A stretch of DNA of 64,000 nucleotides, taken from NCBI GenBank assembly GCA_025331435.1, contig JAIWNI010000004.1, forward strand, positions 372,001 to 436,000. The letters run 5' to 3'. Under the pieces are notes generated by a model. That model searched no databases. It saw only the letters and a program-made list of their open reading frames with translations, and was not told where the DNA came from. Positions 13,705 through 45,466 of the stretch are shown here, piece after piece. The DNA comes from Choanephora cucurbitarum (Eukaryota; Mucoromycota; Mucoromycetes; Mucorales; Choanephoraceae). A program made the translations under genes and the position numbers. Position 1 is the first letter of the stretch. Each line of letters begins with the position of its first letter.

Positions 13705-14660
13705 TGACAACGGTATAATTCTCTCTTATGTTTACCTTTGATATTTGACTTCACAAAAATAAACACAAATGATATAATATTCAGTAGAAGACTGTAAAAG
13801 ACTACGTCGTAATTATATACAGAGAAAAATACGGGTTTTAGGCACTTGTTAGCTTCAAAAAGGAAATTGAAGAAGTATAGGAAATCAAACTTAAAGAAAG
13901 AGATGTTTATTCAACTATTCAGCTTAAGATACTACTTATAGCATCTTGTATTCGCACAGTAATGTTACTTCTTGTTACAATAAATATTTTTTTGAGCGCC
14001 TTCATTATTCTTCTTTTTTTTTTTTTTTAAGTTTTCTTTTTTTTTTTGATTTTTGACAATGATCGCCGACAGGGTCTAAGTTGCACCAAGCAACACAATC
14101 ATTCTTCATCGCATTGTAACCTTGTACCTCACACGATATTCTTACCCTTGACTTCCATTGCTGTTTTGGACAACACCGAAGGCCGGCAGAGACAACGAGA
14201 TTACCATAATAGATACAAGATAGACGGATAAATAATAAAATAAAAATAAACGGGAAGAAAGAAAAGGATACACAATATAAGAAAATAAAAGGGAGATAGA
14301 AATAAAATAAAGAAAAGGATAAGCAAAAGGATAAATGAGTAGAGACAACAAAAGATATAATATACAGAATAACAATAGAGACAAAAGATAGTAACAGGGA
14401 AACAGACAAAGAGAAGAGACAACAACTTGATACAACAGATAGATTCACTTGACAGGTACATATGGCATCATAATCAACACCCATTTCCTTCAATCCCAAT
14501 TGAAGAGCCGATCTAAGAACACACAATTTTTCTTGACACTCTTTTTCTCTTGCACTACTTCTTGTAACAACCTCGTTTGTCATCACTACTTCTGAACACC
14601 AGCACTTCAAGACCCCACACCGAACGAAAGGCGACACAAAACAAAATACAACATGTATCA
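13705..14660 (-). repeat. 3' LTR of gypsy element 1
   Basis: A 956 bp direct repeat of 20165-21100, starting TGACAACGG and ending ATGTATCA on the plus strand (TG...CA ends in both readings). It is almost identical to the other copy except around 14010-14050, where the T-rich tract is longer here. ORFs inside it are hydrophobic low-complexity readings present in both copies and are not treated as genes. Confidence 0.92.
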
Positions 14661-14694
14661 CGTACCCTCCCGCTAGCCTTGAGTTCACCATGAG

Positions 14695-16248: not shown

Positions 16249-16339
16249 TTATCTTTATTAAGTGTTATGACAATACGAGTATTTATATTCTATGAGATGG
16301 ATAATGATATTATTTTTTTTTTTTGACAATCTTACGATT

Positions 16340-19244
16340 CTAAACTAAATTAATGACATCTTGACCTTGATCTAAGGCACTCTTGAATTCTTCAATTGAT
16401 ATAAACCGGGACAAAGGGTCAGCCAAGTTTTCTTCAGATCTTTTGAACTTGATATCAAAAGCGTAATCGAGCACAGCAGCACTCCACCTGGTCAACTTCA
16501 TACTGGTCTTAGTTGGCCTAAAGATCTGGACAAGACTTGAATGATCAACCACCAGCAAGAAACGAGTACCCTTCAGGAAATGCTTGAAGTAACCAATACC
16601 CCAAACGACAGACATAGCTTCGAGATGGTGAATATGATATCTTGACTCAGCACCCCTAAGACCACGAGACGCATAGGCAACAACCTTCTCATTAGCCATT
16701 GACTCTTGATTGTCAACCTGTGTCAAGACAGCACCCAAACCAAGATTACTAGCGTCGACGTACAAGATGAAGTATCTATCCCGTGCTGGATAGGCCAAGA
16801 CGACAGGCTCAGAGCAAAGGGCAGTCTTCAAAGTATTAAAGGCAGCTTCATGTTCTTCAGTCCAGACAAAGGTAGTGTTCTTTCTTGTCAACTTGTTCAA
16901 GCAGGCAACAATAGAGGCGTAACCCCTAACATACTTCCTAAAGTAGTTGCAAGTACCCAGAAAAGACCTCAACAACGCAGCAGATTCAGGCCTTTGGAAC
17001 CCCAGTATTTTCTCCTTGTTGTAATCAGCAAGAGTACTACCTTCAGAAGTAAGCGAATGACCCAGATAAGTGGTACTAGAAGCCATGAAAGTACACTTGG
17101 CTCTCTTCAGTTTAAGATTGGCACGCTCACAGGCTTCAAATACAAGACGCAGATGTCCAACATGTTCTTCTTGAGTCTTGCTATACACCAACACATCATC
17201 CAGGAACACCAATACGAATTTACCAATATAATCACGGAAGATATCAGAAACGACCCTCTGAAACTCAGAACAACCAGGAGAGATGCCCATCGGCAAGACC
17301 TTATACTTGAACACACCACGGTTTGTCACGAAGGCCGTATATTCAGCGTGATCGGGGTTCAGCTCCAACTGATGGTATCCGGACGTGCAATCGCAAGAGG
17401 TAAACACAGTAGCACCAGCACAAGCCTCCGTTAGTTCAGCGACAGTCGGCGTAGGGAAATTGGTACATAGGATCAACTTGTTCAGCTTACGGTAGTCGAT
17501 TACACACCTTTTGGAACCGTCACGCTTGTCTACCAAGAAAGAGGGCGAGCTATATATACCAGTGGCCTTCTCAATCAAGTCCAGCTCCAACATCTCGTCG
17601 ATGTACTTGTCCATGGTGTCCTGGTCCTCCCAACCCAGACGAAATGGTCTTGCCTTCACTGGAATAGCCCCTTCCTTCAGATAGATGTTCATACGGTAGC
17701 CCTTGATTCTTGTCAAGCCAGAGACCTCAGAGAACACATGCCTGAACTCTTCAAGTAAAGGCTTCAGCATATCCGGAGCACCTTCAGTAATGTTATCAGC
17801 AGTATATACAGTTTTGACAGGCTTCTCTTCAGTACCCAAGTCTTCTTCTAGTGTTTCGGTATACTTCTGAGCAAGACCAACATGATAGACCTCCTTCTGA
17901 TTAGACCTCAGAGCAGCAAAACGATCATTCAAGGACTCACGAGTACAATCAACACCAGAACAACCAGCACCAACAACACAAGAACAGCCTTCATCACCAA
18001 CACCAGAAACACCAGAGACACCAGAGACACCAGAGACACCAGAAACACCATCAACTACACCAACTTGATTTGCAAAGGGCAAATGACTAGTATAACAACC
18101 GAGCTTGACCATACCACTAGTAGTAGGGATCTTGATACTAGGTTCGTTCAAGCACATTTCGATACCATAGTTTTGCAGCCACTGGATACCTAATAAACAG
18201 AGCTTGTCACCATTGTCACCTTCAGCAATACACATGTGATCTGGTCTTAGCTTGCCTGCGATCATGATAGGAACATTCATAACCACATCAGACTTGGTAG
18301 GGGTCTTCTTGTTGTTAAAGCCGATGAGATGCAAACTATCGCCATTGGGTACTAGTCCCAGAGAGTCAGCCAAGTTCTTAGAAATAACAGAGACACTAGC
18401 GCCAGTATCGAACACTGCTTCAACTGCTTGACCGTTGATTGAAATGACACCACGCAGAGGAGAACTGACCTTCATCTTGTTCAAGTGATATGGATATTGG
18501 TAGACTGAATCCATGTCACTGAATTCACGGTCATTCACATTGTCAATTAGAGCAAGCTCAGAAGCCAACGAACTAGATTCACCAGTAGACGATTCATCAC
18601 CTTCAGAGTCATAATCAGAGTAATCACCATCCGACCCAGAGTCATACCCGTCGCTATCAAAATCTTGATCATTATCCACCACGTTAATCAAAGCACCTTG
18701 ATGAGCACCAGTACCAGTAGCCAAAGCAGCAAGATGCTTCTTAGTTCGCTTAGGTCGTTGAACCCTTAGATCTCTCAGTCCATCGACTAAATCCTTGGCA
18801 GCATCACGGTCTATAGCAACCCAGTCCAACATGGTAAGTCCAGAGTCTAGATGTCTTAACCTTTCCCAGATATTAAGCGTTCTTGTAGGCACAGGTAGTC
18901 TTCTTGGCTTAGCACGTTTTCTTTTAGGTTTAACCGGAGAATGAGCTTGATTGACAGGTGGTACCAGAGGTAAATTGACTTGAGTGACAGGTGGTACTAA
19001 GGGTACAGGAGGTTGAGTCCTGAGCGGTACTTGAGAAGACAAAATTGGTTGACCGACAGGTAACGCAGGAGCAAGTTCTTGGGTTTTTGTTGAATGGTAC
19101 ATCCACCGGTTCACCTTGAGACCTAACACGCTTGACACCAAACACTTCAGCTTCACCAACTGTATCAACCAAATGGACTTCTTGTTTTTGAGGATTTAGA
19201 TTTTTATGAGTATCAGTTACCTCGTTTACTGATACTCGTTCCCT
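16340..19244 (-). CDS. Protease-RT-RNase H of gypsy element 1 (frameshifted)
   Basis: The main open frame runs 16340-19168. Domains in order: aspartic protease (AVFDTGASVSVIS), reverse transcriptase (VIDYRKLNKLI, FTSCDCTSGYHQLEL, LVFLDDVLVYS with the catalytic DD pair), RNase H (YVDASNLGLGAVLTQ, HHLEAMSVVWGI, LLVVDHSSLVQI). The region just after gag reads sensibly in the -1 frame (19244 down to about 19090: VFGVKRVRSQGEPVDVPFN), then continues sensibly only in the main frame. A single extra base, most likely in the A5 run at 19084-19088 (minus strand), would explain the switch. A run of GVS repeats lies near 18000-18055. Translation is expected from a gag -1 slip. Confidence 0.88.
18000..18055. 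repeat. 9 bp tandem repeat inside the pol ORF
   Basis: ACACCAGAG-type units repeat about five times on the plus strand, encoding successive GVS triplets between the protease and RT regions of element 1. It is followed by a cysteine-rich patch (CSCVVGAGCSGVDC). A simple slippage expansion in a linker. Confidence 0.8.
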
Positions 19245-20131
19245 TTTCCCTGTTCGATAGGAATGGCGTTACTACCAGTAGCTACAGGACTTGACGACCG
19301 CATTTTCTCCAGAAACTCAGGACATTCAGTCTTGCGATGGCCTTCTTTATTACAGAAAAAGCAGGTGAGGACACGACGGACCGGAGAAGGATAAGAGGAT
19401 TGTTTAGCTTGAGTACCGGTTTCTTGTAAATTAACCAGATTAATGCTAATCTTTTCCAACTTGTCAACCAGAGAAGCCATAGTACTAGCAATAGAAACAG
19501 AGTCATTATCTCTTGACATTAATGAAGACACCACAGAGTCAGAAGAACGTTGAACAGATACAGGAGCATCAACACCACCATACTTGACGAAACTCTTTTC
19601 AACCAGAACAGCCTTATCCCTAGCGGATTCAAATGACACAGGAGTACCTTCTTTTTCGACTTCAAAAGCAATACGAGGTTGGATAGCATTAAGGAAGGTG
19701 CGTACTTGAAAACGCTCTGTCTTGTTGTCCAGAAGACCAAATATTTCTTGCATCTTCAAGGCTAGGTCGTCCACAGTAGGATATTCACCACCCTGTCTTA
19801 AGGCATGCAATTGGTTCCACCACTTGTCTTCTTGGTTTTGTAAATACTGTTTCTTAAAGGCAGACACGAACTCGTCCCAGTTGTTTACTTGACCACCAAC
19901 AACATTGTACCAGGTTTCAGCCTTCAACACCATATGGTCACCAGCAATAAACAGGATTTCCTCGTCAGAGAGCTTAGCAGAGACCTTGAGACGCTCTAAT
20001 TTTCTTAACCAGATAGCCGCTTCATTACCATCATTACCACCAGTAAAATCTTTAGGTTCACTCACAAACCGAGCACCTCTTCGTGGCAACATAGATTCTT
20101 TTGACATGGGAGAACTTTGATAAAATAACAT
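19226..20131 (-). CDS. Gag of gypsy element 1
   Basis: Structural capsid/nucleocapsid protein, about 301 aa. The start is the ATG at 20131 (MLFYQSSPMSKESM); an earlier TTG within the LTR edge is not needed. The central capsid fold shows the retrotransposon gag pattern (AIWLRKLERLK, AETWYNVVGG, WDEFVSAFKKQYL). The C-terminus carries a CCHC zinc knuckle, CFFCNKEGHRKTECPEF, for RNA binding. The end of the gene contains the heptamer G GGA AAA at 19250-19244, correctly phased for a -1 slip into pol, seven codons before its stop. Confidence 0.92.
   Translation of the reverse strand: MLFYQSSPMSKESMLPRRGARFVSEPKDFTGGNDGNEAAIWLRKLERLKVSAKLSDEEILFIAGDHMVLKAETWYNVVGGQVNNWDEFVSAFKKQYLQNQEDKWWNQLHALRQGGEYPTVDDLALKMQEIFGLLDNKTERFQVRTFLNAIQPRIAFEVEKEGTPVSFESARDKAVLVEKSFVKYGGVDAPVSVQRSSDSVVSSLMSRDNDSVSIASTMASLVDKLEKISINLVNLQETGTQAKQSSYPSPVRRVLTCFFCNKEGHRKTECPEFLEKMRSSSPVATGSNAIPIEQGKGNEYQ
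19244..19250 (-). other. Candidate -1 ribosomal slip site (GGGAAAA), element 1
   Basis: The gag frame reads CAG GGA AAA GGG, so the heptamer fits the X XXY YYZ rule. The -1 frame stays open past the gag stop and encodes plausible pol N-terminal sequence. The same heptamer sits in the same place in element 2, which has otherwise diverged, supporting function. Confidence 0.65.
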
Positions 20132-20164
20132 GGTTAATACTTTATCAGGTAGGCCGGACCAAAA

Positions 20165-21100
20165 TGACAACGGTATAATTCTCTCTTATGTTTACCTTTG
20201 ATATTTGACTTCACAAAAATAAACACAAATGATATAATATTCAGTAGAAGACTGTAAAAGACTACGTCGTAATTATATACAGAGAAAAATACGGGTTTTA
20301 GGCACTTGTTAGCTTCAAAAAGGAAATTGAAGAAGTATAGGAAATCAAACTTAAAGAAAGAGATGTTTATTCAACTATTCAGCTTAAGATACTACTTATA
20401 GCATCTTGTATTCGCACAGTAATGTTACTTCTTGTTACAATAAATATTTTTTGAGCGCCTTCATTATTCTTCTTTTTTATTTTTTTTGATTTTTGACAAT
20501 GATCGCCGACAGGGTCTAAGTTGCACCAAGCAACACAATCATTCTTCATCGCATTGTAACCTTGTACCTCACACGATATTCTTACCCTTGACTTCCATTG
20601 CTGTTTTGGACAACACCGAAGGCCGGCAGAGACAACGAGATTACCATAATAGATACAAGATAGACGGATAAATAATAAAATAAAAATAAACGGGAAGAAA
20701 GAAAAGGATACACAATATAAGAAAATAAAAGGGAGATAGAAATAAAATAAAGAAAAGGATAAGCAAAAGGATAAATGAGTAGAGACAACAAAAGATATAA
20801 TATACAGAATAACAATAGAGACAAAAGATAGTAACAGGGAAACAGACAAAGAGAAGAGACAACAACTTGATACAACAGATAGATTCACTTGACAGGTACA
20901 TATGGCATCATAATCAACACCCATTTCCTTCAATCCCAATTGAAGAGCCGATCTAAGAACACACAATTTTTCTTGACACTCTTTTTCTCTTGCACTACTT
21001 CTTGTAACAACCTCGTTTGTCATCACTACTTCTGAACACCAGCACTTCAAGACCCCACACCGAACGAAAGGCGACACAAAACAAAATACAACATGTATCA
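20165..21100 (-). repeat. 5' LTR of gypsy element 1
   Basis: A 936 bp partner of the LTR at 13705-14660. Its plus-strand right end (ATGTATCA) is followed by nine bases (GTCATACAA) and then the tRNA-Arg gene. In element orientation it begins TGATACATGTTG and ends CGTTGTCA. Confidence 0.92.
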
Positions 21101-32465: not shown

Positions 32466-33158
32466 TCTTAATTTAACAACTTCGTCTTTTTACTCAATAT
32501 GTATTTACTACCTCCTTTAATTGTTACCCTATATTAACTCACTAGTTCTCTCTTTTCCTTACTTAAACAAAAGAATTGCAATACCAGCATAATTACACAA
32601 ATATGCCTTAATTAACCAAGTAATAAACAAGCCAAAGAAAGAAGCTTTACTCTGATACAAAACTCACAATTTAGCGCAACACAAGTTGATAATATTGAGC
32701 CAACCTTTTAGACTTGGTAGCCAGAAATGCGACAAGTTTGGTCATTTATGCGATTAAGCAAGAACTATTCATATGGTGGACGCTGAAATCAAAACATATT
32801 TTTGAGAGTAATCAAAAGCGTCAATAAATTACTAGGAATATAGTATATTCTTTAACTATTGTATGAGCCAATCCAGTTGCAACATTTGTTTCTTCTGATC
32901 ACAACATGCAACGCTGAATGATTCCCTTAAAGCTTCATATCGAGACAATACAATTTAAAAAAGCAATTAGACAAGGTCAACTGATACCATAGATCGCAGA
33001 CCAATGTTTACAACTTGATAAGGTATGATATAGAAGAATGCATTACGATTCTATAAAAGAAACATCTTTTACTGTTAGATTTCGGTCCGGATAAAAAGCT
33101 CCGGTCCGAACAAAAAAAATTAGTTAATGTGATATATTTAACTGCACATAAAGTTGAT
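32466..33158. other. Intergenic region with CGGTCCGGA motifs next to element 2
   Basis: No gene. Near 33083-33110 two copies of a CGGTCCG core appear (TTCGGTCCGGATAAAAAGC, then CTCCGGTCCGAAC), 50-75 bp before the left LTR of gypsy element 2, echoing the cluster before element 1. Confidence 0.4.
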
Positions 33159-34146
33159 TGTCAAGGTATAATGATGAATGTCTGAGCAATTTGAAGGAGG
33201 TTTATTTCTTGAGTTTTCAATTGAGCACAGATCAGAGACGAGCAGCAACAATAGAATGCAGATAGACGAGAGTGAACAACAGGAGTTTTGATGAGGAAAG
33301 ATAAAGAGCAAAAAAGGAGGATAAGAGGGAAGCAAATGCGTGCAATAAATCAAAAATAACAATAAAATAGACAACAAGTACAAAGAAAGATCAAAATCAC
33401 AACAACTAACCAAGTCTTTTCCAAAAGAACAAATTTATCCTGAGACCAGATTAGAGCCAAAAGTTTTTCTTGTATTTTCTTCCTTGTGTTTCCTTTAGAT
33501 CACTTATATCTTGAATCAATTCTTCTAACTAAGAATGTCCGATTCAGTCCTGAGATAAGCTTCTTGTACACAGCAAAATAAACGTCAGAGTCTTTCCTTT
33601 GGGTCTTGAACTTAGACTGAAAATGTGTTCGTAAAAAAGATTATCGTAAAGATAAAAAAAAAATACTAAAGGTAATCCCCCTTTTTTATTCATAAAAATA
33701 GTAATGATATTTATATACTTCTTTTTCACTGATTTGTTTTGTTACGGATACGATGAGGGATAAATAATAGAGATAGAAATATTTGCATTTGATGATGGGT
33801 ACGATGAGAGATAAATAAAAATAAGAAAAATATTTGTAGCTCACGATGGACATCATGAGAGATAAACAGTAGTAAACAAAAATATTTGTGGCAACAAGTA
33901 CGATAGGAGGTGTTTGATAACATTTAGGGTGAAAGATACAGAAATGGAAACTTGACATTTTGGGAATGCTATGGATTACGGCAGACAGACTTCTTTTCTC
34001 AATCCTGCTCTGCTTCACCTGAGCTTGACAGGTCCTTGACATAACAACTTCCTTGTCAATCCAATCTGCTTCATTCAAGACATTGTGATTACTTGATCTC
34101 CCGAGTCTCCAAGACAACATTTCGTCATTCATATCACCTCTTGTCA
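33159..34146 (-). repeat. 3' LTR of gypsy element 2
   Basis: A 988 bp direct repeat of 39590-40577. It starts TGTCAAGGTATAATG and ends CACCTCTTGTCA on the plus strand, so both termini carry the short inverted repeat TGACA/TGTCA. Apparent identity with its partner indicates a very recent insertion. Confidence 0.94.
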
Positions 34147-34183
34147 ACAGCCCCTTCGAAATTTGTCTTGAGTGCACAAATAG

Positions 34184-35695
34184 TCAACTTGCTGTCCTTG
34201 ATATCCATCTCTTGAATTGATTATGGGCGGACTTGATAGTAATGTCAGGCACCATATTGTTTGCTTCGATAAATGGTTTCAACATGTCTCCATTCACAGC
34301 ATCCTTGATGCGAGTAGAGTTCATTCCTTCAAGGTAATAAGTACCATTCTTATTTACTTTGATGATGCTAAGAGGTCCAATCCACTTGTCTGCAAATTTG
34401 TGCTTCGGCACCATCTCTTTCAGAAGAACTTGCTCACCCACTTTGTAAGTCTTGACGTGTACAGTTTGATTGTATCTAACAGCATATCGTTTCTTGGCAA
34501 TGTCAGATGCCCTTCTAGCAGTCTCAATAGCTTCCTTCAAATCCTGATCAACAAAACGCACTCGAGATTTCACTGCATTCTCCAGGTCCACGTCTTCGTA
34601 ACCATGAATGGGTGCTTGCCATGTTGCAGGTGTCAACATTTGATAGCCATAAAGTAAAATGCTGGGTGAATAACCTGTCGATTCGTTTACCAATACTCGA
34701 ATCACCATTAGAGCCGAGTCAATGTAACGGTCCCACTCCAGGTCACCTCTGTTTTCAGCACATAACTTGCTCATGATTTTGACTAACGTTTGATTGAGAC
34801 GTTCGCAACTACCATTCGCTTGTGGACGGAAAGCTGTAGTGTAAATGCTCTTGGCTCCAATTTGAGATAAGAATTTTTGAGTATAAGCTGATATAAAATT
34901 GCCACCACGATCGGATAGGATGAAACGCGGTACACCATACTGACTGATGATTTTGTCCTTGTAGAAGCGTACTGTAGTCTCTTCACTTATATCCGGCACT
35001 GCTTGTGCAATAGGCCATCTGGTCAATTGATCGATAGCTGTCAAGATGTACTTGTTACCAGAAGACGATACATGCAATGGTCCAACTGCATCAACGCCTA
35101 TCAAATAGAACGGTTGTGATGGAGTCCGTATAGGCTTAGCTAGATTTGTTCTTGTGAATTTCGGTCTTGCGTGTTTTTGACATATGAGACAGCTTGATAC
35201 CACCTTCTTGGCCTTGTCATTCACATTTGTACAGACGAAATTGTCATTGATCATTCTTGCTAGGTTGCGTACCCCAAGATGGTTCTCCTTATGAAGTTTG
35301 AGAATGACTTCCCATTCATCTGCATCATGCAACACTCTTCTTTCCGTGGTTTTCTCAACCAGATGATCACCCTTGACCAAGTATCTTGTAGAATGTCTAC
35401 GGATTTTTTGCTTGATCACCTTAGTAGAGTCGTCAGGGTAAGTTTTCTTGGTCAAGTAGTAAAAGATAGCCAAAAACCATGGATACTTCATGCTTGCAAC
35501 GTATTTGATGACAGATGGACTCTTCAAAAAGAAAGTTGAAAAGAAAAGAAAAGTAAAAATAAGGGAAATAGAGAAAATAAAAAGAAAGATAACAATACAA
35601 CGAATAAACAAAACGTAGTATTGTTCTACCGGCATCCAGTGTTTGTTTGTTTGTGAAAGTAAATGAGCCCAACTTGTACTGATCATATGATCTAG
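34184..35695 (-). CDS. Integrase region of gypsy element 2, after a readthrough stop
   Basis: In the same frame as the RT ORF and separated from it by one UGA (35698-35696). The first ATG after it is at 35686. Residues 1-60 are strongly hydrophobic (YYVLFIRCIVIFLFIFSISL and onward), then the tether (YPWFLAIFYYLTKKTYPDD). An HHCC finger (HKENHLGV, CLICQKH) and the DDE core follow: LIGVDAVGPLHV, ILSDRGGNFISAY and FRPQANGSCERLNQTL. The C-terminal part has the expected beta-rich DNA-binding segment (VLLKEMVPKHKFADKWIGPL). Likely product: fused to RT by readthrough, or separately initiated at 35686. Confidence 0.9.
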   Translation of the reverse strand, partial: LDHMISTSWAHLLSQTNKHWMPVEQYYVLFIRCIVIFLFIFSISLIFTFLFFSTFFLKSPSVIKYVASMKYPWFLAIFYYLTKKTYPDDSTKVIKQKIRRHSTRYLVKGDHLVEKTTERRVLHDADEWEVILKLHKENHLGVRNLARMINDNFVCTNVNDKAKKVVSSCLICQKHARPKFTRTNLAKPIRTPSQPFYLIGVDAVGPLHVSSSGNKYILTAIDQLTRWPIAQAVPDISEETTVRFYKDKIISQYGVPRFILSDRGGNFISAYTQKFLSQIGAKSIYTTAFRPQANGSCERLNQTLVKIMSKLCAENRGDLEWDRYIDSALMVIRVLVNESTGYSPSILLYGYQMLTPATWQAPIHGYEDVDLENAVKSRVRFVDQDLKEAIETARRASDIAKKRYAVRYNQTVHVKTYKVGEQVLLKEMVPKHKFADKWIGPLSIIKVNKNGTYYLEGMNSTRIKDAVNGDMLKPFIEANNMVPDITIKSAHNQFKRWISRTAS

Positions 35696-35698
35696 TCA
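35691..35698 (-). other. Candidate stop-codon readthrough signal (TGA CTA G)
   Basis: The RT ORF ends CGG ATG TGA CTA GAT CAT ATG, and the following codons remain open in the same frame through integrase. UGA followed by CUAG is a known leaky context in cellular and viral readthrough genes. Readthrough would give the full PR-RT-RH-IN polyprotein normal for Ty3/gypsy. Confidence 0.7.
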
Positions 35699-38553
35699 CA
35701 TCCGTTCTGGAATCAGCCTTGATAAACTATCTGCAGGATTGATCTTTCCAGGTATGTGTTCAATTGAGAAATCATATTCTAACAGCACAGCAGCCCACCT
35801 TGCTAGCTTGGCACTTGTATTTTGCGACTTCAATATGTGATACAGAGCTGAATTGTCTGTTCTTAAAACAAAGTGTCTTCCCAAAAGGTAGTGTCTGAAA
35901 TGACTGACAGCCCACACGATGGCAAAGCCTTCTAGATGTACAGCAGCGTAGTTCTTTTGTGCAGCAGAAACAGTCTTCGAGATGTAGGCAATAACCGTTT
36001 CACCTTCTTTTGATCCATCTGGTGATTGTGATAAGATGCCTGCAAATCCCTTGGTGGATGCATCAGTAGTCAAAATTTGCACCATATTTTTGTTGGGGAA
36101 GGTCAATATAGGAGGTGTCCTTAAGGCAGTCTTCAAAGCCATAAAGCTAATTTCCTGGTCTTGACCCCAAATAAAGGCTTGTCCCTTTCTGGTCAACTTG
36201 CTCAAGGGTTGTGCTATTGCAGCATAGTCTTCAACAAACCGCCGATAATAGCCTGTGGTACCCAAAAAGGAACGTACTTCATCTAAATCCTTTGGCGTAC
36301 TAAAGTCAGCTATTTTATTCATGTTTCTTGAGTGAGGGTAAATGCCTTCTGCAGAGATTTCATGTCCAAGGTATTCAACCTTAGGCTTCAAAAAATGGCT
36401 TTTGGTCAGATTCAGCCTCAAATTGTGTTCTAAACACTTCTCCAACACCAACTTGCAGTGTTTTCTGTGATCTTCGATGGTCTTGGAAAATATTATCACA
36501 TCGTCGATGAAGACAAACACGAAATCACCAATGTATGGAGCGAGTAATATTTGCATCATTCGTTGGAAGGTACTGCTAGCGGAAGTGAGACCAAATGGCA
36601 TGACATTAAACTCGTAGCATCCCTGTAGGGTGACGAAACCGGTATACTCCTTTGACTTCTCTTCCAATGGTACTTGCCAAAAACCACTAGCGCAGTCAAT
36701 CACAGAAAAGAATTGATTTCCTCCCAGGTGATCTAGTAAATGATCTATGATTGGCAAAGCATACCCAGATTTCACTGTCATTGCATTGAGCTTTCTATAG
36801 TCTATCACCAAACGCAGCTTGCCATTGTTTTTCTTCACGAAAAAGCAGGGACTACACCATAATCCTTGCGATGGTCTAATCAAATTAAGCTCCAACATTT
36901 TCTTGATTTCACCTTTCAAAGTCTCTTCTTCATTCCATGTTAATCTGAAAGGCTTGGAACGAATTGGTACCGGCTTATCTTCCTTTAGCGGAATATCATG
37001 ATTTAAGAAACTAATCAGTCCAGGACCACTCACTTCAACAAAGACTTCAATATATTGTTCAAGGATCTCTTTTATTTCAGGGTCATTGATATGTTCAAAA
37101 GTACGTAATCTGGCTAATTCAGCTTCTTCATCAACAATATCTTGCGCATAGGTGGTAGTTTGTATGACTTCGTCAGTCTTGCTTTCAGCCCCTTGACTTG
37201 TAGTTATAGTCACAACAAAGATTTCAGAGGTTGCTTGATGCTTGAGATTATCACTTGCTTGATTGGTTCGTTGAGATGTACCACGCAATTCAACATGTTG
37301 ACCATTATTCGTAGGAATACAAATAGCATCATCTGCTACTCGAAGCGTAACCTTGTACTTTTTGAACCAAGTCATACCAATAATACAAAAGTTTGAATTC
37401 TTCTGGTTATTGGGTGGTTGTATCCAAAAATGTTCATGGCTGACATGACCGGCAACATTAATGGGAACATTGGCAGTAACTCTTGCGGGGTTACGATACT
37501 TTTTGTCATCAAATGATACTAACACCATTTCATCGACATGCGTAGGTTCCAACTGCAATTGCTTCGCCAGACTTTCACTCATAACGCTAACACCAGCACC
37601 AGTGTCGAAGATACAATCCACTAGTTGACCATTGATCAATACTGGGGCACGAAGAGGAGTGCTTGCTTGAATAGTATTGATGTTGAAGTCATCAAGTTTT
37701 GATATAGGTGTACGTTCACTTTCAGTTCCTGATTCATCAGATTCAGAGTCACTATCTTCATAATCAGAATCACTAGTAGATGTCCAAGCATACGCAGATT
37801 CTTGTTCATGATTCACTTCACTACAATCAACGTCAGAGTCAGCACCCTTTTCCACTCTTGTGCTCCAATCAAGAATGCCTTGTGCGTTATTTATTTCCAT
37901 AGGAGCAATAGCAGAGTTATCAGGATCAAGTATCAAATTCATGCTTTGTTTCTTTTTCTTGGTAGCTCTCATTGTACGTATAGCTGCAAGTATGTCACTT
38001 TGGGCTTCTTTATCATACACCATCCAGTCCAAGATTGACATTCCAGAATCGGCTCCAGCAAGTGCAGAAATGATTTTCTTGGTGTTTTTCTTCAACTTCA
38101 TGTATCTTACAGGTCTTCTTTTTCTTGGCTTCTTAATTTGACCATTAGATGCAACGGGTTGTTGATTATTCATGACATTGTTTTGAGCTTGATTAATGGG
38201 AACTTGATTAATGGGAACTTGATTAATGGGAGCTTGATTGTAAGGAACTTGTGTTTGAGTCTGTGTCATATGATGGCTAGGTACCAAAGGTGGTCTTGTG
38301 GATGGGCCTCCACTTCTGTCTTCATATGAGTAGCCTTGATGAGCTTGTACACTCTGATTGGCAACAGTAGGCATTGGACTTTTTCCTTTGTCAATCGCAA
38401 CAGCTTCTTGATCATGATTTGTTTTTCTTCTTTTTTGTGTAGCAGACAATATGGACATATGAGGTAGAGAATCAATATAATTGATGTTAGATGCAGTAGA
38501 AGGATTTTGGTTTTGCACGTCAGGACCTTCATTATTCACTGGCGTGCTTTGTC
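35696..38553 (-). CDS. Protease-RT-RNase H of gypsy element 2
   Basis: Enters by -1 slip from gag at 38554-38560; the frame is open from there to the UGA at 35698. Order: Gln/Asn/Pro-rich linker with three VPINQ-type repeats (near 38185-38240), a basic patch (KKPRKRRPVRYMKLKKN), an acidic Ser-rich stretch, aspartic protease (IFDTGAGVSVMS), reverse transcriptase (LRLVIDYRKLNAM, SVIDCASGFWQVPL, FVFIDDVIIFSKT with the DD pair) and RNase H (TTDASTKGFAGILSQ, HLEGFAIVWAVSHF, LRTDNSALYHIL). All catalytic residues I could check are present. Confidence 0.93.
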
Positions 38554-39495
38554 TTTTCCCGATTCTTGTGCAGTACCATCTTGAAGGGCTTGTTTGAGTT
38601 TAGGACAGTCCGCTTTTCGATGGCCTTCTTCTTTACAATAGAAACAGGCGAAAGACCTCTTGCCGCTTGTGTTCTGTGAATTCTTATGGTTCTGATTTGA
38701 CCCTGAGTTATTTGTACTAGTAGCCTTTAGAAGACTAACTTTCATTTCGCGGAATTCTTTAATCAGATCACTCATAGAATCACCACCAACACTAGTAGTT
38801 GAAGTTTGATAGCCATATTTGTCATGCGAATAGGGATTATAGTCTCTTCCAGGAATAGAAGATGGAGCGGTAGATGAATTTTGTGTCTTGTCAGCATTTT
38901 TGTATTTTCTCAAGAATTTTTCTGCTTTCATTGCTTTCAACACCAAGTCTTGAAGAGTAGTCTTGTCATCAATACCACTTCGTTCAACTTCAAGTGCAAT
39001 TTCGGAATGAATAGCCTTTAAAAAGGTGCGTTTGATCATGCGTTCATCCTTAACTTCAACCAGTTGGAACAATTCGCGCATGCGTATTTCAACATCTTCA
39101 ATGGATTCGTCAGATAATTGTTTGATATTGTGGATTTCATCCCACCATACTTCAGTTTGACCAATACAGTATTTTGCCTTGAATGCAGCCTTGAACTCAA
39201 CCCAGGTGGTGTCTTCATTACCAGTATAAGTCAAATTGTACCAACAACCAGCTTGTTCAGTGAGGTGATCTACTGCAATAAGCAAAATGCTTTCATCATT
39301 TAATTGTCCAAGAGTTTTGATACGATCCAGCTTTTTCAACCAGTTAATAGGATTAGTACGTCTTATGTCACCAGAGAAATCGGTTGGATCACTCATGAAC
39401 TTCATTAGGAATGGGGAGAATTGTATCATGTTCTTTTCGCTGATCGTGTCAGCACGCGATTTGCCTTGTTCAGGATTCAGCGTCATATTTTTCAT
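38536..39495 (-). CDS. Gag of gypsy element 2
   Basis: 319 aa, ATG at 39495. Capsid-type helices: WLKKLDRIKTLGQLND, CWYNLTYTGNEDTTWVEFKA and WWDEIHNIKQLSDESIED. A C-terminal CCHC knuckle, CFYCKEEGHRKADCP, binds RNA. The frame contains TCG GGA AAA GAC at 38561-38551, the phased slip heptamer, followed five codons later by the TGA stop at 38538. Confidence 0.93.
   Translation of the reverse strand: MKNMTLNPEQGKSRADTISEKNMIQFSPFLMKFMSDPTDFSGDIRRTNPINWLKKLDRIKTLGQLNDESILLIAVDHLTEQAGCWYNLTYTGNEDTTWVEFKAAFKAKYCIGQTEVWWDEIHNIKQLSDESIEDVEIRMRELFQLVEVKDERMIKRTFLKAIHSEIALEVERSGIDDKTTLQDLVLKAMKAEKFLRKYKNADKTQNSSTAPSSIPGRDYNPYSHDKYGYQTSTTSVGGDSMSDLIKEFREMKVSLLKATSTNNSGSNQNHKNSQNTSGKRSFACFYCKEEGHRKADCPKLKQALQDGTAQESGKDKARQ
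38554..38560 (-). other. Candidate -1 ribosomal slip site (GGGAAAA), element 2
   Basis: The zero frame reads TCG GGA AAA, satisfying X XXY YYZ; the -1 frame continues open into pol. The gag stop and the pol frame overlap (gag TGA at 38538-38536), the classic arrangement for programmed frameshifting. I did not compute a downstream pseudoknot. Confidence 0.7.
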
Positions 39496-39589
39496 ATAGT
39501 AGTGTTTTGCTTGTCTTTTTTCCTTTATAGTAAGTTTTCAGAATACCAGGACCTTGTATTTTTTATTCCACTTTAGCCGCACCAAAATT

Positions 39590-40577
39590 TGTCAAGGTAT
39601 AATGATGAATGTCTGAGCAATTTGAAGGAGGTTTATTTCTTGAGTTTTCAATTGAGCACAGATCAGAGACGAGCAGCAACAATAGAATGCAGATAGACGA
39701 GAGTGAACAACAGGAGTTTTGATGAGGAAAGATAAAGAGCAAAAAAGGAGGATAAGAGGGAAGCAAATGCGTGCAATAAATCAAAAATAACAATAAAATA
39801 GACAACAAGTACAAAGAAAGATCAAAATCACAACAACTAACCAAGTCTTTTCCAAAAGAACAAATTTATCCTGAGACCAGATTAGAGCCAAAAGTTTTTC
39901 TTGTATTTTCTTCCTTGTGTTTCCTTTAGATCACTTATATCTTGAATCAATTCTTCTAACTAAGAATGTCCGATTCAGTCCTGAGATAAGCTTCTTGTAC
40001 ACAGCAAAATAAACGTCAGAGTCTTTCCTTTGGGTCTTGAACTTAGACTGAAAATGTGTTCGTAAAAAAGATTATCGTAAAGATAAAAAAAAAATACTAA
40101 AGGTAATCCCCCTTTTTTATTCATAAAAATAGTAATGATATTTATATACTTCTTTTTCACTGATTTGTTTTGTTACGGATACGATGAGGGATAAATAATA
40201 GAGATAGAAATATTTGCATTTGATGATGGGTACGATGAGAGATAAATAAAAATAAGAAAAATATTTGTAGCTCACGATGGACATCATGAGAGATAAACAG
40301 TAGTAAACAAAAATATTTGTGGCAACAAGTACGATAGGAGGTGTTTGATAACATTTAGGGTGAAAGATACAGAAATGGAAACTTGACATTTTGGGAATGC
40401 TATGGATTACGGCAGACAGACTTCTTTTCTCAATCCTGCTCTGCTTCACCTGAGCTTGACAGGTCCTTGACATAACAACTTCCTTGTCAATCCAATCTGC
40501 TTCATTCAAGACATTGTGATTACTTGATCTCCCGAGTCTCCAAGACAACATTTCGTCATTCATATCACCTCTTGTCA
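39590..40577 (-). repeat. 5' LTR of gypsy element 2
   Basis: Partner of 33159-34146. It ends exactly where the 25 bp LINE target duplication starts (40578), 10 bp before a truncated tRNA-Ile 5' end. Confidence 0.94.
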
Positions 40578-40602
40578 AAAGAAAAGTGCTCGTTTAGCTC
40601 AG
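40578..40602 (+). repeat. Left target-site duplication with truncated tRNA-Ile 5' end
   Basis: Twenty-five bases matching 45383-45407 with one mismatch (T at 40587, C at 45392). Bases 40588-40602 are the first 15 nt of tRNA-Ile (GCTCGTTTAGCTCAG), including part of box A. The rest of the gene is absent here, so this copy is dead. Confidence 0.92.
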
Positions 40603-40882
40603 GTGAAACATTATATTTTATTATATACAACAATTCTTTGGGCAACTCTATGGAGCATAAGCCGAATTGGATGAACTAAACTAAATAAAAGAGTGGGAAA
40701 AAGTACAAAAAACCCAGCAGAAAAACGAACAAAAGGGAAAAGAGGAAACAGAAGGACAGGAAGAGAGAGCAACAGAGTACTGAGACAACTTTAGAGCCCA
40801 AAGGCAGCACCAACGGATGGGAACTTTGATAATCACTTACCACCGTGGTTGCGCAGTGAGCAGGCTAAAGAGGTCATTTTGT

Positions 40883-43108
40883 CTATGGAGAGATCGGAGG
40901 AGAAGGAGGAGGAGGAGGAGGAAGCCATGATCCATTTGGATCAGGTTCTGGAGCGATGGTAGCAAGAGGATGCACCAGAGAGTCTATTGCATGAAGCAAT
41001 TGGAGAAGAGAGGACCAAAAAGGAGGAGGACCAGCGGAAGCCTTTACAGGCAGAGAGTTGAGGGCATGGTCGATCGGATGAACGCCAGCCGGAGGAGAAG
41101 GGAGGTCGAAAAAGAGGGATGGATCAAGTGCACTACAAGACAAGAAATGATCTCTTGAAATGTAGGCACCGGAGAGGCAGGGACATTCTTCACGAAGATT
41201 CGCAAAGCGACCAAGACGCCAACGAACAAGCCTACTGCGAGCAGTAGTTGTCATTGGGAGGTAGAGGATTGGATCCGGCTTTGAAGTGCACGGACGACAG
41301 GCACGCAAGAGGACAGCACGGCCACGAGAAGCTTGAGTTGCCATTTGGCGGTTGAACTGATCCTGCCAATATCGCCTAAAGTGAGCACGAAGCTCAACAT
41401 TAGAGACAGGCGGTGGATCAGGGAGAGAGAGGTAGAGAGCATTCTGTTGAAGAAGCTTAGAGAGGCGAGGGTACCGTAGTTGATCACGTAAGAGCACAAG
41501 CAAGCAGTCATCAGGGAGGTATTGTACACGAAGGACGTATCTTGTGACAAGGACATTGTACCTATGAATCATGGCAGGCAGGCAAGTGATGTGTTTTGCT
41601 ACTTGAAACCAAGAGCCACCAATGAACATACGGACCAGCCGGTTTTGAAGGTCATCGAGCTGTTTCATATCTGAAGAGGAGATACGGGCAATAGCCAACC
41701 CATACTCTATCTTTGGACGGATAAAGCAGGTATACAGTCGAGAGGACAAGAGGAGAGAGAAGCCGTTACGGTGGACACCTACTGAGACCAGCAGGGCCAT
41801 GGTCTTGACAGCCTTAGCTGCACGAAAAGAGACAATATCGGGACCAGAAATGCCCTTTGAGCGAAAGGGTACACCGAGGTATACAAATTCGTCAACGAGC
41901 GGTAACGGTTCATCATACAACGTCAATCGTGGGCCATCAGGTCGTGCGTTGAGGACTGCACATTTAGACGGACTCCAGCGATATCCGAGGGAGCGAGAAT
42001 GCTCAGCGGCAATGTTCAGCATCCGTTGGACCTGACTACGAGAGCCAATGATCGCAACGTCGTCCGCAAAAAGAAGACAATTCAGAGGAATTGGAGAGGT
42101 AGAAGGCGAACCAGGTGGACATACCAAAGTAGTACCAGCCGAGGCAGCAGAGCGAAGCGCAGAGGGAAGAGAGTTGATGTACAGAGAGTACAGATGCGGG
42201 GAAAGAACAGAGCCTTGGAGAACACCAGTGACAGGAGAGAAAGGCGCAGAGGAATGGTTAGCGATCAGCACCGAAATCTGAACGTCATCAAACAAGTTGA
42301 TGAGCAATCCGAGAAGTGGGCGAGGTAGAGAAGAATCAGCCAGAGCATTCCAGATGACACGTCGGTCAACAGTGTCATAAGCAGCCTTGATGTCAAGGAA
42401 AGCAACCACAGGACGGCAATGATTGGTAAGCAGGTAGTCATGCATCAAGTCATGCAAGCAGAGGGCTTGATCCAGAGGGCTACGCTGCGGGCGAAAGCCA
42501 CCTTGCGCAATGTCAAGTGGAGGCGAGTGTTCATACAGACAACGAGAGATGCAAAACTCAAAGAGCTTACGCATAACCGACGTCAGAGAGATTGGCCGAT
42601 AGTTTGCAGGATCAGAGGGATCGTTTTTCTTGTGTATCGGAAATACACTGGCTAGACGCCAGAGAGAAGGAGTGTAAGACCATTGATAACACAGAGAGAA
42701 GAAGAGAGAGAGGAGCGGGGCAAGGTCCGTTGCAACGGCCTTCAGCATTTCTGCTTTCAGGTGATCGCTACCCGGTGCCTTGCGTAGAGGTAACCGCTTG
42801 ATGTGATCCATGATAGCATCTACAGAGAAAATGTCCAAATCATCAGGCAGAGCAAAAGGAAGCAAACTATCGTGAGGTGGTGGAGAGGCGGGGCGAGCGT
42901 CAGGCGCAGGCAAAAGGGAACCGTTGTAGACAGTGGCCAAGTGAGAGGCCATGGTATCCACTGATGCAGCAGGACCGTCAGGATGAGCATAGGTTGATGA
43001 GCAGTCACGACGCCTTTTTATCCTTGAAAGAGAGGCCGTAGCTTTAGAGAAATCTTTTTCAAGTTGGGCACAGAAATTCTTCCAAGAGAGACGTTTCGCC
43101 TTTGATAC
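40883..43108 (-). CDS. LINE ORF2, reverse transcriptase part (frame-disrupted)
   Basis: The open frame continues ORF2 after a frameshift near 43094-43111; its first ATG is 42961. RT motifs in order: LPLRKAPGSDHLKAEMLKA, VFPIHKKNDPSDPANYRPIS, VAFLDIKAAYDTVDRRVIW, GVLQGSVLSPHLYSLYIN, CLLFADDVAIIGSRSQ (catalytic ADD) and YLGVPF. Downstream are a thumb region and a C-terminal Cys-His knuckle: CPCLSGAYISRDHFLSC. The protein ends in a proline-rich tail. In frame upstream of the ATG, KRLSWKNFCAQLEKDFSKAT is clearly coding, showing that the true protein was joined to the endonuclease. Clade (L1, Tad or other) cannot be set by eye. Confidence 0.9.
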   Translation of the reverse strand, partial: VSKAKRLSWKNFCAQLEKDFSKATASLSRIKRRRDCSSTYAHPDGPAASVDTMASHLATVYNGSLLPAPDARPASPPPHDSLLPFALPDDLDIFSVDAIMDHIKRLPLRKAPGSDHLKAEMLKAVATDLAPLLSLFFSLCYQWSYTPSLWRLASVFPIHKKNDPSDPANYRPISLTSVMRKLFEFCISRCLYEHSPPLDIAQGGFRPQRSPLDQALCLHDLMHDYLLTNHCRPVVAFLDIKAAYDTVDRRVIWNALADSSLPRPLLGLLINLFDDVQISVLIANHSSAPFSPVTGVLQGSVLSPHLYSLYINSLPSALRSAASAGTTLVCPPGSPSTSPIPLNCLLFADDVAIIGSRSQVQRMLNIAAEHSRSLGYRWSPSKCAVLNARPDGPRLTLYDEPLPLVDEFVYLGVPFRSKGISGPDIVSFRAAKAVKTMALLVSVGVHRNGFSLLLSSRLYTCFIRPKIEYGLAIARISSSDMKQLDDLQNRLVRMFIGGSWFQVAKHITCLPAMIHRYNVLVTRYVLRVQYLPDDCLLVLLRDQLRYPRLSKLLQQNALYLSLPDPPPVSNVELRAHFRRYWQDQFNRQMATQASRGRAVLLRACRPCTSKPDPILYLPMTTTARSRLVRWRLGRFANLREECPCLSGAYISRDHFLSCSALDPSLFFDLPSPPAGVHPIDHALNSLPVKASAGPPPFWSSLLQLLHAIDSLVHPLATIAPEPDPNGSWLPPPPPPSPPISP

Positions 43109-44246
43109 CTAGACGACGGAACGAACGATGAGCATCAAGATGCAACGACCACCAGTACGCTTTGTCAACACCTAGGGCGTGACGCCACATACTATAACAG
43201 CGATCGCGTTCACGAGCAGCAGACTCGATTTCCGAAGTCCAGTATTTCTTCCACCACTTACCAGACCGAGGTGCTCTCACACCAACCGATCCATCCAAGG
43301 AATCGTAGAAGCACTCATTAAGAGTAGCATTCAGACCATCAATGTCAGGGCGGCATGTAGGAGGAGAAGCAACCAGAGCGGACAGCGCATCACCCAAGGG
43401 CGAGACACTAGTCCTAAACCTGGACCTAAACAGAGCTAGCGGTTCCGTGTCTTGCAAGCGAGACAGGTTCCAAAGCCGTCTAGGAGCCAAGGTTGGCGCC
43501 GAAGCACCAGCAGCCACAGACGCATAGTCGAAAGACAGAGTCAACAATCTATGGTCAGAGCCAAGAGACAAGTCTGATTCTACCACGATCTGAGCCGAAC
43601 GCATATCCTTTGCAGGTATATTTGTTACGAACAGATCGATGATGCTACTCACTTCCCTTTCACGCCGAAACGTAGAAAAGGTAGCAACACCTGGAGAAAG
43701 AGACGAGTTGAGCACAGCCAACCCACATTGTTCAAGCCATGTTGCCATAGCAAGTCCACGGGGATTGGTAGCGGAATCACCGGTAAGAGCACCAAAACGA
43801 GCATTGAAGTCACCACAGATAATGGAGTCAGAGTGAAGGGGGATTTGTTGTAAAGCGGATAGCACCAGATCATTAGAGATACTGGGTGGAAAATAAACAC
43901 AATGCACATTGACCTTATCAATTTTCAAAGAAAGAGTGTATGCATTGAGAGAGGGAAGTTGAGAGACAGAGAGTTGACAATGAGGAGAGATGAGTGCCGA
44001 AACACCACCAGAACCACGGTTGTTTGCGTTTATTAGCCTCTTGCCATAGAGATGGTACTGAGACCACTCAACTGGAAGAAAGCCAGATGTGAGCCAAGTT
44101 TCTGTCACAAAGAGGACATCGGTGTGGAGGACATGGGATAGGACATCGTGGATGGTTGAGGCCCGAAGGCCATTAGCATTCCAGATGCTTAGAGAGAAGG
44201 AGCGGAGAGGGGTGGGTATAGAGAAAGGATCTGTAAGAGGACTCAT
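43059..44246 (-). CDS. LINE ORF2, AP-type endonuclease part
   Basis: The N-terminus of ORF2 nicks target DNA to prime reverse transcription. Motifs of the exonuclease-endonuclease-phosphatase fold: LSIWNANGLRAS (Asn), DVLFVTETWL (catalytic Glu), SIICGDFNARFGALTGD and DLSLGSDHRLLTLSF (Ser-Asp-His). The ATG at 44246 overlaps the ORF1 stop (TAATG). The last 17 or so codons before the TGA at 43061-43059 are out of the true frame; the next domain continues in another frame, consistent with one inserted base. Confidence 0.9.
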   Translation of the reverse strand: MSPLTDPFSIPTPLRSFSLSIWNANGLRASTIHDVLSHVLHTDVLFVTETWLTSGFLPVEWSQYHLYGKRLINANNRGSGGVSALISPHCQLSVSQLPSLNAYTLSLKIDKVNVHCVYFPPSISNDLVLSALQQIPLHSDSIICGDFNARFGALTGDSATNPRGLAMATWLEQCGLAVLNSSLSPGVATFSTFRREREVSSIIDLFVTNIPAKDMRSAQIVVESDLSLGSDHRLLTLSFDYASVAAGASAPTLAPRRLWNLSRLQDTEPLALFRSRFRTSVSPLGDALSALVASPPTCRPDIDGLNATLNECFYDSLDGSVGVRAPRSGKWWKKYWTSEIESAARERDRCYSMWRHALGVDKAYWWSLHLDAHRSFRRLGIKGETSLLEEFLCPT

Positions 44247-44248
44247 TA
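44244..44248 (-). other. UAAUG stop-restart overlap between LINE ORF1 and ORF2
   Basis: ORF1 ends CTT TAA and ORF2 begins ATG AGT, sharing the A: TAATG. This exact overlap is known from other LINEs (for example SART1), where ORF2 is translated by termination-reinitiation. Confidence 0.75.
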
Positions 44249-45172
44249 AAGAGACATTACAGAATCACTATCGTCAGAGCCGGTCTTTGAGAAAGCAAAG
44301 GACTTGGCACGGGGATCTTGAGCCTGTTGGCGAGAGTGAGCAGCGGCGACAGCAGAACGGAGATCGGTGTCATCGATCCATCCCCAATCCAAAAAGGAAC
44401 GGGCAACAGAACCGACAACAACAGGACGAAGGAAAGAGAGAGTGTCAAGAGCACGACCGTTAACCAGCTCATGCATTTGAGCGGCACGTTGGTCGACCGA
44501 CAGAGAGGCAAACTTGGGATCAGCAAGGTTGGATGGATCCAAAGGATCGAAATCCTTCACAAGCTCAGCGCCAGCCTTCTGCATGACAGCAGTGAATTGC
44601 TCCACATACTGAACATGCATCAGCACGCCAAGAACACCAGAAGCAGGAAAAGAGATGTCGAGGACACGACCGGTATCGACGCCAATGCGTCTGAGACGAG
44701 AGCGCACTTCAGATCGGTTGATCTTTCGTGAACGCCCAAGGTAAATGTACTTAAAGCCTTGAGGACCTTTGGCCTCAGGGCTCATGAAAGCGCGAGCAGC
44801 AGCTACACGCTTTTTGGTAGAAGGTGCACGAGCCTTCTTGGCAGGTGCAGAGGTAGGAGCGGCGGGTTTGGCAGCGGTATCCGCCCAAGAGGAAGCAGCA
44901 GGACCATCTGTTGGCACAGAAGCTTGAGTATCAGGCAACGTCACCTGAGTGTTAACCATATTGAGAAGTCTTTCATTCTCAGAGATTAGTTTTTTGTTGT
45001 TTTCCTCTAGGGAAAAAATTTTTTCTTGTAGAGACTCTATGTGTTTGAAGAGCCCATCGTGTTGTTGAACTTGTTGTTGCAATTGCACAACAAGATTGTA
45101 GAGCTGGTGCACGTCAACAGGTTGATCGCGCACGAAAGAGGTGGGTGCATTCAGTTGCATTGGTGAAGTCAT
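44246..45172 (-). CDS. LINE ORF1 protein
   Basis: 308 aa from the ATG at 45172 (MTSPMQLNAPTSFVRD); the frame is open further upstream, but that part falls in the 5' UTR. A Gln-rich coiled coil (VHQLYNLVVQLQQQVQQHDG, then SLQEKIFSLEENNKKLISEN) should oligomerise. An Ala/Pro/Lys-rich basic linker (TSAPAKKARAPSTKKRVAAA) follows. Then comes an RRM-like segment (GFKYIYLGRSRKINRSEVRS, RLRRIGVDTGRVLDISFPAS), giving RNA binding. No CCHC knuckle is seen. Architecture fits L1-type ORF1 chaperones. Confidence 0.82.
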   Translation of the reverse strand: MTSPMQLNAPTSFVRDQPVDVHQLYNLVVQLQQQVQQHDGLFKHIESLQEKIFSLEENNKKLISENERLLNMVNTQVTLPDTQASVPTDGPAASSWADTAAKPAAPTSAPAKKARAPSTKKRVAAARAFMSPEAKGPQGFKYIYLGRSRKINRSEVRSRLRRIGVDTGRVLDISFPASGVLGVLMHVQYVEQFTAVMQKAGAELVKDFDPLDPSNLADPKFASLSVDQRAAQMHELVNGRALDTLSFLRPVVVGSVARSFLDWGWIDDTDLRSAVAAAHSRQQAQDPRAKSFAFSKTGSDDSDSVMSL

Positions 45173-45382
45173 CTTGAAAACTAATGTTCCAAAAGGACTT
45201 GAAAAAATACGCTGGAAGGTGCCTGAAGATCTAAGCTTGTTATCCAAGGTTACGTATGTGATGATGAGTTGACTAGGCTTCTGGCTAATAGACTTCTTTA
45301 GTGTATTAGCGTTCTGATTGGCTGTAAAGGGGGAGATCACGTGACTTTTGTTACACAAATGTAAGAAAGTTATGAAAAAGCG

Positions 45383-45407
45383 AAAGAAAAGCGCTCGTTT
45401 AGCTCAG
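45383..45407 (+). repeat. Right target-site duplication
   Basis: Matches 40578-40602 with one difference. It contains 10 bp of tRNA upstream flank plus the first 15 nt of the tRNA, and is continuous with the rest of an intact tRNA-Ile. Confidence 0.92.
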
Positions 45408-45466
45408 TTGGTTAGAGCGTGGTGCTAATAACGCCAAGGTCACAGGTTCGACCCCTGTAATGAGCA
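45393..45466 (+). tRNA. tRNA-Ile (anticodon AAT)
   Basis: A 74-base cloverleaf. Acceptor GCTCGTT pairs with AATGAGC (one G-U); the D arm is GCTCAGTTGGTTAGAGC (box A TAGCTCAGTTGG); the anticodon arm is TGGTG-CTAATAA-CGCCA with AAT; the T arm is ACAGG-TTCGACC-CCTGT (box B). The discriminator is A at 45466, then a T6 terminator. It remains intact because the LINE insertion duplicated its 5' end; its upstream flank beyond -10 is now LINE sequence. Confidence 0.96.

Follow-up and report, generated by a model that had tools for sequence, protein, structure and literature searches.

A LINE retrotransposon of Choanephora cucurbitarum with recurrent insertions inside the A box of tRNA genes

The DNA under study, hereafter the window, is a stretch of 64,000 nucleotides from Choanephora cucurbitarum (assembly GCA_025331435.1, 33.4 Mb in 357 contigs; contig JAIWNI010000004.1, or C292:372001-436000, with contigs labelled by C number and loci by L number). 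It carries a long interspersed nuclear element (LINE), i.e., a retrotransposon without long terminal repeats (non-LTR), positioned between a 14-nt fragment of a tRNA-Ile gene and a complete tRNA-Ile(AAT) gene. The features of this locus, including the open reading frames (ORFs) and the 5' untranslated region (UTR) of the LINE, are as follows.

40588 to 40601, plus strand: left copy of the target duplication, a dead stub equal to nt 1-14 of tRNA-Ile(AAT) and identical to 45393-45406
40602 to 45392, minus strand: the LINE, 4.8 kb, 5' end full length
40883 to 42961, minus strand: ORF2 part 2, reverse transcriptase (RVT_1, 1.1e-25), in another frame than part 1
43059 to 44246, minus strand: ORF2 part 1, endonuclease (EN) of the apurinic/apyrimidinic endonuclease (APE) type (PF14529, 2.5e-12; PF03372, 3.6e-8)
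44246 to 45175, minus strand: ORF1, 309 aa, with weak Pfam matches under their cut-offs
45338 to 45343, no strand assigned: CACGTG within TCACGTGA, in the LINE 5' UTR, 55 bp upstream of tRNA +1
45393 to 45406, plus strand: right copy of the target duplication, nt 1-14 of the complete tRNA, at the computed duplication length
45393 to 45466, plus strand: complete tRNA-Ile(AAT) gene (ARAGORN), adjoining the LINE 5' end and transcribed away from the LINE

The initial annotation had placed the LINE inside the A box of a tRNA gene, with a dead stub on its left and a complete tRNA on its right, and both points were confirmed, as ARAGORN called the tRNA at 45393-45466 and none at the left stub. In element sense, the 3' end reads ...AATGTTTCACC at 40602 and the 5' end lies at 45392. 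Sequence comparison within the window revealed near-identical 25-mers at 40578-40602 and 45383-45407, with one mismatch, which had been taken as a 25-bp target-site duplication (TSD). When 5' ends are compared across copies, this length is ruled out: only 14 nt, GCTCGTTTAGCTCA (40588-40601 = 45393-45406), are duplicated, and the 10 bp just ahead on the right, AAAGAAAAGC (45383-45392), form the 5' terminus of the element itself, found in other copies too. The resemblance of this terminus to the 10-bp left flank AAAGAAAAGT is best read as a local coincidence, and the G at 40602 is an element base rather than a target base. Because the 10 bp outside the 14-nt duplication are the LINE 5' end, the duplication begins at tRNA +1; the LINE abuts this position and displaces all upstream DNA, and not merely the DNA beyond -10 as had been supposed.

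A search of this one genome with the LINE 3' end matched 20 sites, and all 20 junctions were read. Fourteen of the 3' ends are joined to nt 1-14 of a tRNA gene that the assembly contains, namely tRNA-Ile(AAT) (C292, C347 and C40), tRNA-Tyr (C90 and C303), tRNA-Lys(CTT) (four, all in C294), tRNA-Ala(AGC) (two in C19, plus C175 and C113:359) and tRNA-Lys(TTT) (C251, with the corresponding intact gene at C112). Three more, in the C235 array, join GCTTCCTTGGCTCA, a 14-mer of tRNA form that includes TGGCTCA; an intact tRNA partner of this stub was not found, and the contig ends within the array. All 14 verified stubs terminate in TAGCTCA, and the cut follows CA at 20/20 sites. Counted per locus (n=14), 10 are verified, one is likely (C235), one is unclassed (C147) and two are off-target. 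Dropped before these counts were three 3-mismatch matches (C54, C112, C353), which are loci without element sequence, as well as pieces without a 3' end (a third C19 copy, C146, two in C307, C357, C246, C326 and two in C57). The repeated use of one target that the initial annotation had anticipated is therefore borne out, and unrelated targets, its pre-set mark of a chance hit, are seen at only two of the 20 sites, with one further site unclassed. That a single LINE merely fell into a tRNA gene by chance has in its favor the existence of these two off-target copies, but we regard it as vanishingly improbable given that 10 of 14 loci (11 of 14 with C235) stand at the same base of tRNA genes, with P ~6e-34 for 11/14 if 250 tRNA genes of 75 bp are assumed. 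In addition, an older subfamily (C40 and C294_0), ~86-88% identical to the main subfamily over the last 640 nt, has the same insertion site in both of its copies at tRNA genes, suggesting that the insertion habit predates the subfamily split.

As for the position of the cut, targets with an A at position 15 (tRNA-Ala, tRNA-Lys(CTT)) retain the junction GCTCA^GGTGAAAC; because the junction is unchanged at these targets, we place the nick after A14, with the extra G coming from the element. Two informative ends were available in 11 of the 20 rows; the duplication was unreadable where the neighbour is the same element (three rows), where a contig end cuts the copy (C347, C235_3, C113:359 and C147), in C175 (two different tRNA ends) and in C251 (5' end meeting other DNA). 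The readable duplications were 14 nt in 10 of the 11 insertions and 15 nt in one (C5). Since the off-target insertion C113:249 also has a 14-nt duplication, the stagger seems to be a property of the enzyme, and 14 nt from the cut in the A box reaches tRNA +1 exactly. At the opposite end, nine 5' ends were compared, and AAAAGCGAAAGAAARG plus C, CC or T precedes the tRNA or stub in 8 of them (at tRNA-Ile, Tyr, Lys and the C235 target), the exception being C303, which has a 5' truncation.

Judged from its encoded domains, an APE-like endonuclease together with a reverse transcriptase, the element is an APE-type non-LTR retrotransposon, and the marks of target-primed reverse transcription are all present (a constant 3' end, 5' truncations and a target duplication). 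ORF2 of the window copy is disrupted, with EN and reverse transcriptase in different frames; it is uninterrupted, as a single frame of 1126-1136 codons, in C90, C303, C235_1 and the 5'-cut C347. The AlphaFold2 model of EN (pLDDT 86.9, pTM 0.65) has as its nearest predicted structural matches the human LINE-1 and TRAS1 endonucleases (TRAS1, 1wdu, E 1.9e-12), followed by APE1; a phmmer search of EN against PDB gave weak ExoIII matches only. Residues E49, D146, N148, D204 and H232, which we take to be the catalytic residues of EN, are invariant across 37 aligned rows. For ORF1, 54 homologues were identified, and the top-ranking one measures 308 aa. The named homologues of the element proteins, among the matches listed (120 of 712 in one search), belong to Mucoromycota, with genera such as Mucor, Parasitella, Gilbertella, Pilaira, Rhizopus, Cokeromyces, Umbelopsis and others. 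Protein scans found no relatives in viral contigs, and three loci from a DNA pattern scan (L068-L070) were rejected as chance matches in phage-like coding sequence. C146 (L060) harbors a 69%-identical LINE relative, head-to-head with a tRNA-Thr gene that lies ~550 bp from the LINE 5' end; no stub was found there, and this relative was left out of the counts of tRNA-targeted copies.

We consider it very probable that the element is a fungal APE-type LINE with the A box of tRNA genes as its target, a reading that includes recruitment by factors of RNA polymerase III (Pol III) and a LINE 5' end standing in for the upstream region. As implied by the junctions, the nick is on the tRNA-sense strand after A14; the 5'-truncated copies and the target duplications are in keeping with target-primed reverse transcription, and the second strand is cut 14 bp upstream, at exactly tRNA +1. 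The LINE thereby lands head-to-head with the tRNA, with the 14-nt stub past its 3' end and a complete tRNA gene past its 5' end, and the rebuilt gene can be entered again to yield head-to-tail arrays. We infer that Pol III factors (TFIIIC/TFIIIB) bring the endonuclease to tRNA genes, that a loose DNA preference (~YNCA^) may set the exact base, and that the LINE 5' end, with TCACGTGA at ~-55, may replace the native upstream box.

An alternative is that the endonuclease reads the DNA of the A box (~TRGCTCANNNGG), with tRNA genes entered merely as carriers of that sequence. R1, TRAS and other site-specific LINEs probably read their target DNA sequence, the predicted EN structure resembles the TRAS1 and L1 endonucleases, TAGCTCA ends every verified stub, and CA precedes the cut in all 20 sites. 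On the other hand, TAGCTCANNNGG occurs 146 times in the genome (reversed control, 111) and is followed by a B-box pattern in only 11 of these, with none of the insertions examined lying at a known non-tRNA copy of the core motif; the off-target sites AATTGGTTATTTCA^G and TTATTGACCACTCA^A do not match the motif, and TRGCTCA is absent from the stubs of C147 and of both off-target insertions. Given 146 occurrences of the core motif, and none of the examined insertions at a known occurrence outside tRNA genes, sequence alone is insufficient for target choice, and we deem this alternative unlikely; the initial annotation's proposal of sequence-specific cutting in box A cannot stand as the sole cause.

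Occupancy of the target genes is high among the genes found, bearing in mind that 63 of 1531 candidates were scored in the search for the tRNA family. All three tRNA-Ile(AAT) genes found by DNA search, 100% identical, are each adjoined by the LINE; the single tRNA-Ala(AGC) gene found and the single tRNA-Lys(CTT) gene found are likewise occupied (the other match of the latter search is Lys(TTT), at 84%). Among the 11 genes with TAGCTCANNNGG plus a B box, 6 are occupied, and the other 5 had no element match among the search results, the flank of one of them (C112) having been read. Since all three tRNA-Ile(AAT) genes found are occupied, we surmise that a tRNA gene next to the LINE stays usable; of the initial annotation's statement that the essential gene is left functional, the complete tRNA is indeed present, with function suggested by this occupancy pattern. 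In C294, an intact tRNA-Lys is preceded by four tandem copies, of which two are full length and the others have different truncation points. The outermost copy belongs to the older subfamily (12-13% diverged), an order that entry of new copies on the tRNA-proximal side would produce. C19 (L055) contains two tandem 5'-truncated copies, with one truncation point, before the sole tRNA-Ala(AGC) gene found.

Recognizing that such arrays and multiple occupied loci could also arise if a single LINE-tRNA unit had been duplicated, segmentally or in tandem, we weighed the resemblances between loci. The common truncation point and 1781-nt perfect repeat of C19 copies 1 and 2, the identity of the three Ile genes and the likeness of downstream DNA (C175/C90, 85% over 726 bp; C175/C40, 71% over 569 bp) are compatible with duplication. 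The downstream likeness, however, is partial between loci (65-96% identity) and comes from a repeat (~GGACAAAGGATAGTTTTTGCAGTAACTTGTAAAAGAGAAT) that lies behind 9 of 10 tRNA genes aligned (the window, L002-L004, L007, L054, L055, L060 and L067); these genes differ in isotype, the distance from gene to repeat start varies, and the repeat is also found behind unoccupied genes, at C112 Lys(TTT) and C146 Thr, without this LINE at +1; it is absent behind the tRNA-Arg gene of the window. Furthermore, the left flanks of the Ile loci (C292, C347, C40) have no mutual match at E 1e-3, different isotypes have been entered, and the C294 copies differ in truncation and subfamily. We therefore hold duplication to be quite improbable as the general explanation, and read the downstream repeat as a further tRNA-linked repeat rather than a segmental duplication, perhaps another element targeting DNA downstream of tRNA genes.

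The LINE ends beside tRNA genes were compared with native upstream regions. CACGTG lies at -54 to -56 in 4 of 5 such ends inspected, in both 5' UTR types. The native set comprised 8 of 13 upstream regions (L002-L004, L006, L007, L057, L060 and L067), leaving out C292 Ile and C292 Arg (LTR within ~10 bp), C147, and C251 and C235 (common 500-bp repeat ending at +1). CACGTG is present at -51 to -64 in 3 of these 8 (C40, C112, C146; P 2.4e-6 at the higher background rate, the distance range having been picked after seeing the data), and in each of the remaining 5, CCGG occurs two or three times within -58 to -91; the C112 region also has CCGG at -52. Full-length LINEs need an internal promoter, and TCACGTGA may thus serve only the LINE's own RNA polymerase II promoter, its position before the tRNA being coincidental; tRNA genes next to truncated copies without the box, and the five native regions with CCGG pairs in place of CACGTG, would agree with this explanation, against which stands the similarity of the LINE spacing to the native one in both 5' UTR types. 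We see the own-promoter explanation as a strong contender, falling just short of an even chance. More tentatively, and with considerable doubt, we speculate that the LINE is a self-sparing tRNA cassette, in which the stagger equals the distance from A14 to +1, TCACGTGA stands at the native distance, the whole tRNA-Ile(AAT) family operates on LINE upstream DNA, and the rebuilt gene acts as a renewable docking site.

Two further sequence observations concern these upstream regions. A 500-bp repeat, 71-75% identical between copies, immediately precedes two stubs (L005 and L051) and carries CACGTG close to its end; left of the C251 and C235 stubs, this CACGTG is at -53 and -56. The string CACGTGACTGTCCGGCA occurs at window position 13648, just left of the second gypsy element described below, and again upstream of tRNA-Lys(TTT) in L067; the copy at 13648 may be the box that natively stood upstream of tRNA-Arg before the insertion moved it away.

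Several findings weigh against insertion into the A box as a complete account: 1) two of the 20 insertions (C113:249 and C5) are off-target, and the 3' end in C147 (TGGCGAATAGCACA) was placed in neither class; 2) the C175 copy (L003) meets an intact tRNA-Ile on its 5' side but a tRNA-Ala stub on its 3' side, for which recombination, misassembly or joining of two tRNA genes are candidates; 3) beyond the C251 5' end, ~500 bp are assembled with no tRNA there, this DNA being 75% identical, in inverted orientation, to the 500-bp repeat that lies left of the C251 stub and stops at its +1, with recombination, another element or assembly as candidate causes; 4) given their shared 1781-nt repeat, the C19 copies may stem from tandem duplication or an assembly effect; 5) several LINE copies lie at contig ends; and 6) the sole Ala(AGC) and Lys(CTT) genes found adjoin truncated copies, with ORF2 DNA upstream, and C303 is truncated short of the CACGTG box. 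Because these last three lack the box, CACGTG would not be strictly needed if the genes beside truncated copies work.

Elsewhere in the window, two elements of the Ty3/gypsy type, assigned by Pfam (gag, protease, RT, RNase H, integrase), also end close to tRNA genes.

33158 to 40577: Ty3/gypsy-type element 1, LTRs at 33158-34150 and 39589 to ~40577, 99.9% identical
13703 to 21100: Ty3/gypsy-type element 2, LTRs at 13703-14660 and 20163-21100, 97.8% identical

The right LTR of element 1 ends ~10 bp before +1 of the tRNA-Ile stub, and that of element 2 ends 9 bp before tRNA-Arg(TCG) at 21110; no short matching TSD was seen by eye for either. Ty3 is described, in the accessible part of PMC5911963, as aiming at active tRNA genes. 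If these gypsy elements do likewise, element 1 would have arrived before the LINE split the gene, and the LINE insertion would be recent. Neither of the two LTRs matched any of 23 loci by BLAST. A blastn comparison of 12 flanks plus L067 with the element revealed no older LINE remnants left of the stubs (one 24-nt match, E 0.033), and searching the flanks by tblastn with the ORF1, EN and RT proteins returned the known C146 relative only. Inverted pairs of tRNA-like A/B-box pattern matches, ~0.9-1.2 kb apart, were noticed in C74, C99, C105 and C180, perhaps representing a repeated element with tRNA-like ends.

The closest known systems are TRE5 and NLTR-A of Dictyostelium, both inserting upstream of tRNA genes. 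As far as the accessible text of the sources goes, TRE5 (e.g., TRE5-A) is similarly a two-ORF APE-type LINE found in opposite orientation 5' of tRNA genes (PMC5911963, PMC5391098), with tandems at already occupied tRNA genes (PMC5391098) and an extra C at a 5' junction (PMC5911963, PMC5391098). Unlike the present LINE, which cuts after A14 and whose full-length copies adjoin +1, TRE5 integrates 40-54 bp 5' of the mature tRNA, and TRE5-A has an oligo(A) end, whereas here ...AATGTTTCACC joins the stub directly with no poly(A); the fixed 14-nt TSD also sets the present LINE apart from TRE5 as described. NLTR-A of Dictyostelium purpureum inserts 2-6 bp upstream of the mature tRNA, near the end point of the present LINE, but has an RNase H domain (PMC5006619), which Pfam did not match in the three ORFs scanned here; TSDs are not among its described features, and an in-gene cut is possible there too. 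Among Dada DNA transposons, three families in Perkinsus marinus have a putative TSD, TAGCTC, in the tRNA A box, but Dada encodes a DDE transposase with a 6-7 bp TSD where the present element has EN and RT, and rebuilding of the gene from +1 is not part of its description in the same partial source (PMC3706591). The zebrafish LINE Dewa is likewise a target-specific non-LTR element tied to tRNA genes, with the spacer of tRNA-Leu given as its target (PMC3706591), and Grem-LINE1 of Mucor is another L1-like element of Mucoromycotina, pericentric by description (PMC7377519). R1 and TRAS share the APE-type endonuclease, and the EN model matches TRAS1, which differs in having telomeric repeats as its target; the target of R1 is 28S rDNA. 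In the literature searched, with subscription papers mostly outside reach, we found no LINE inserting inside tRNA genes in fungi.

What is distinct here is the in-gene cut at one base, the fixed 14-nt duplication reaching to +1 and the fact that, for three isoacceptors, every gene found is occupied. The tRNA-targeting retrotransposons reviewed in the accessible part of PMC5911963 insert beside the gene; a cut inside an essential gene, combined with its rebuilding by a duplication of fixed length, would be a different low-damage strategy. With this system, three questions become testable: how the length of the stagger came to fit the position of the target, whether an APE endonuclease is led to its site by Pol III factors or by DNA sequence, and whether a retrotransposon can become indispensable to its host as the upstream DNA of a tRNA gene family.

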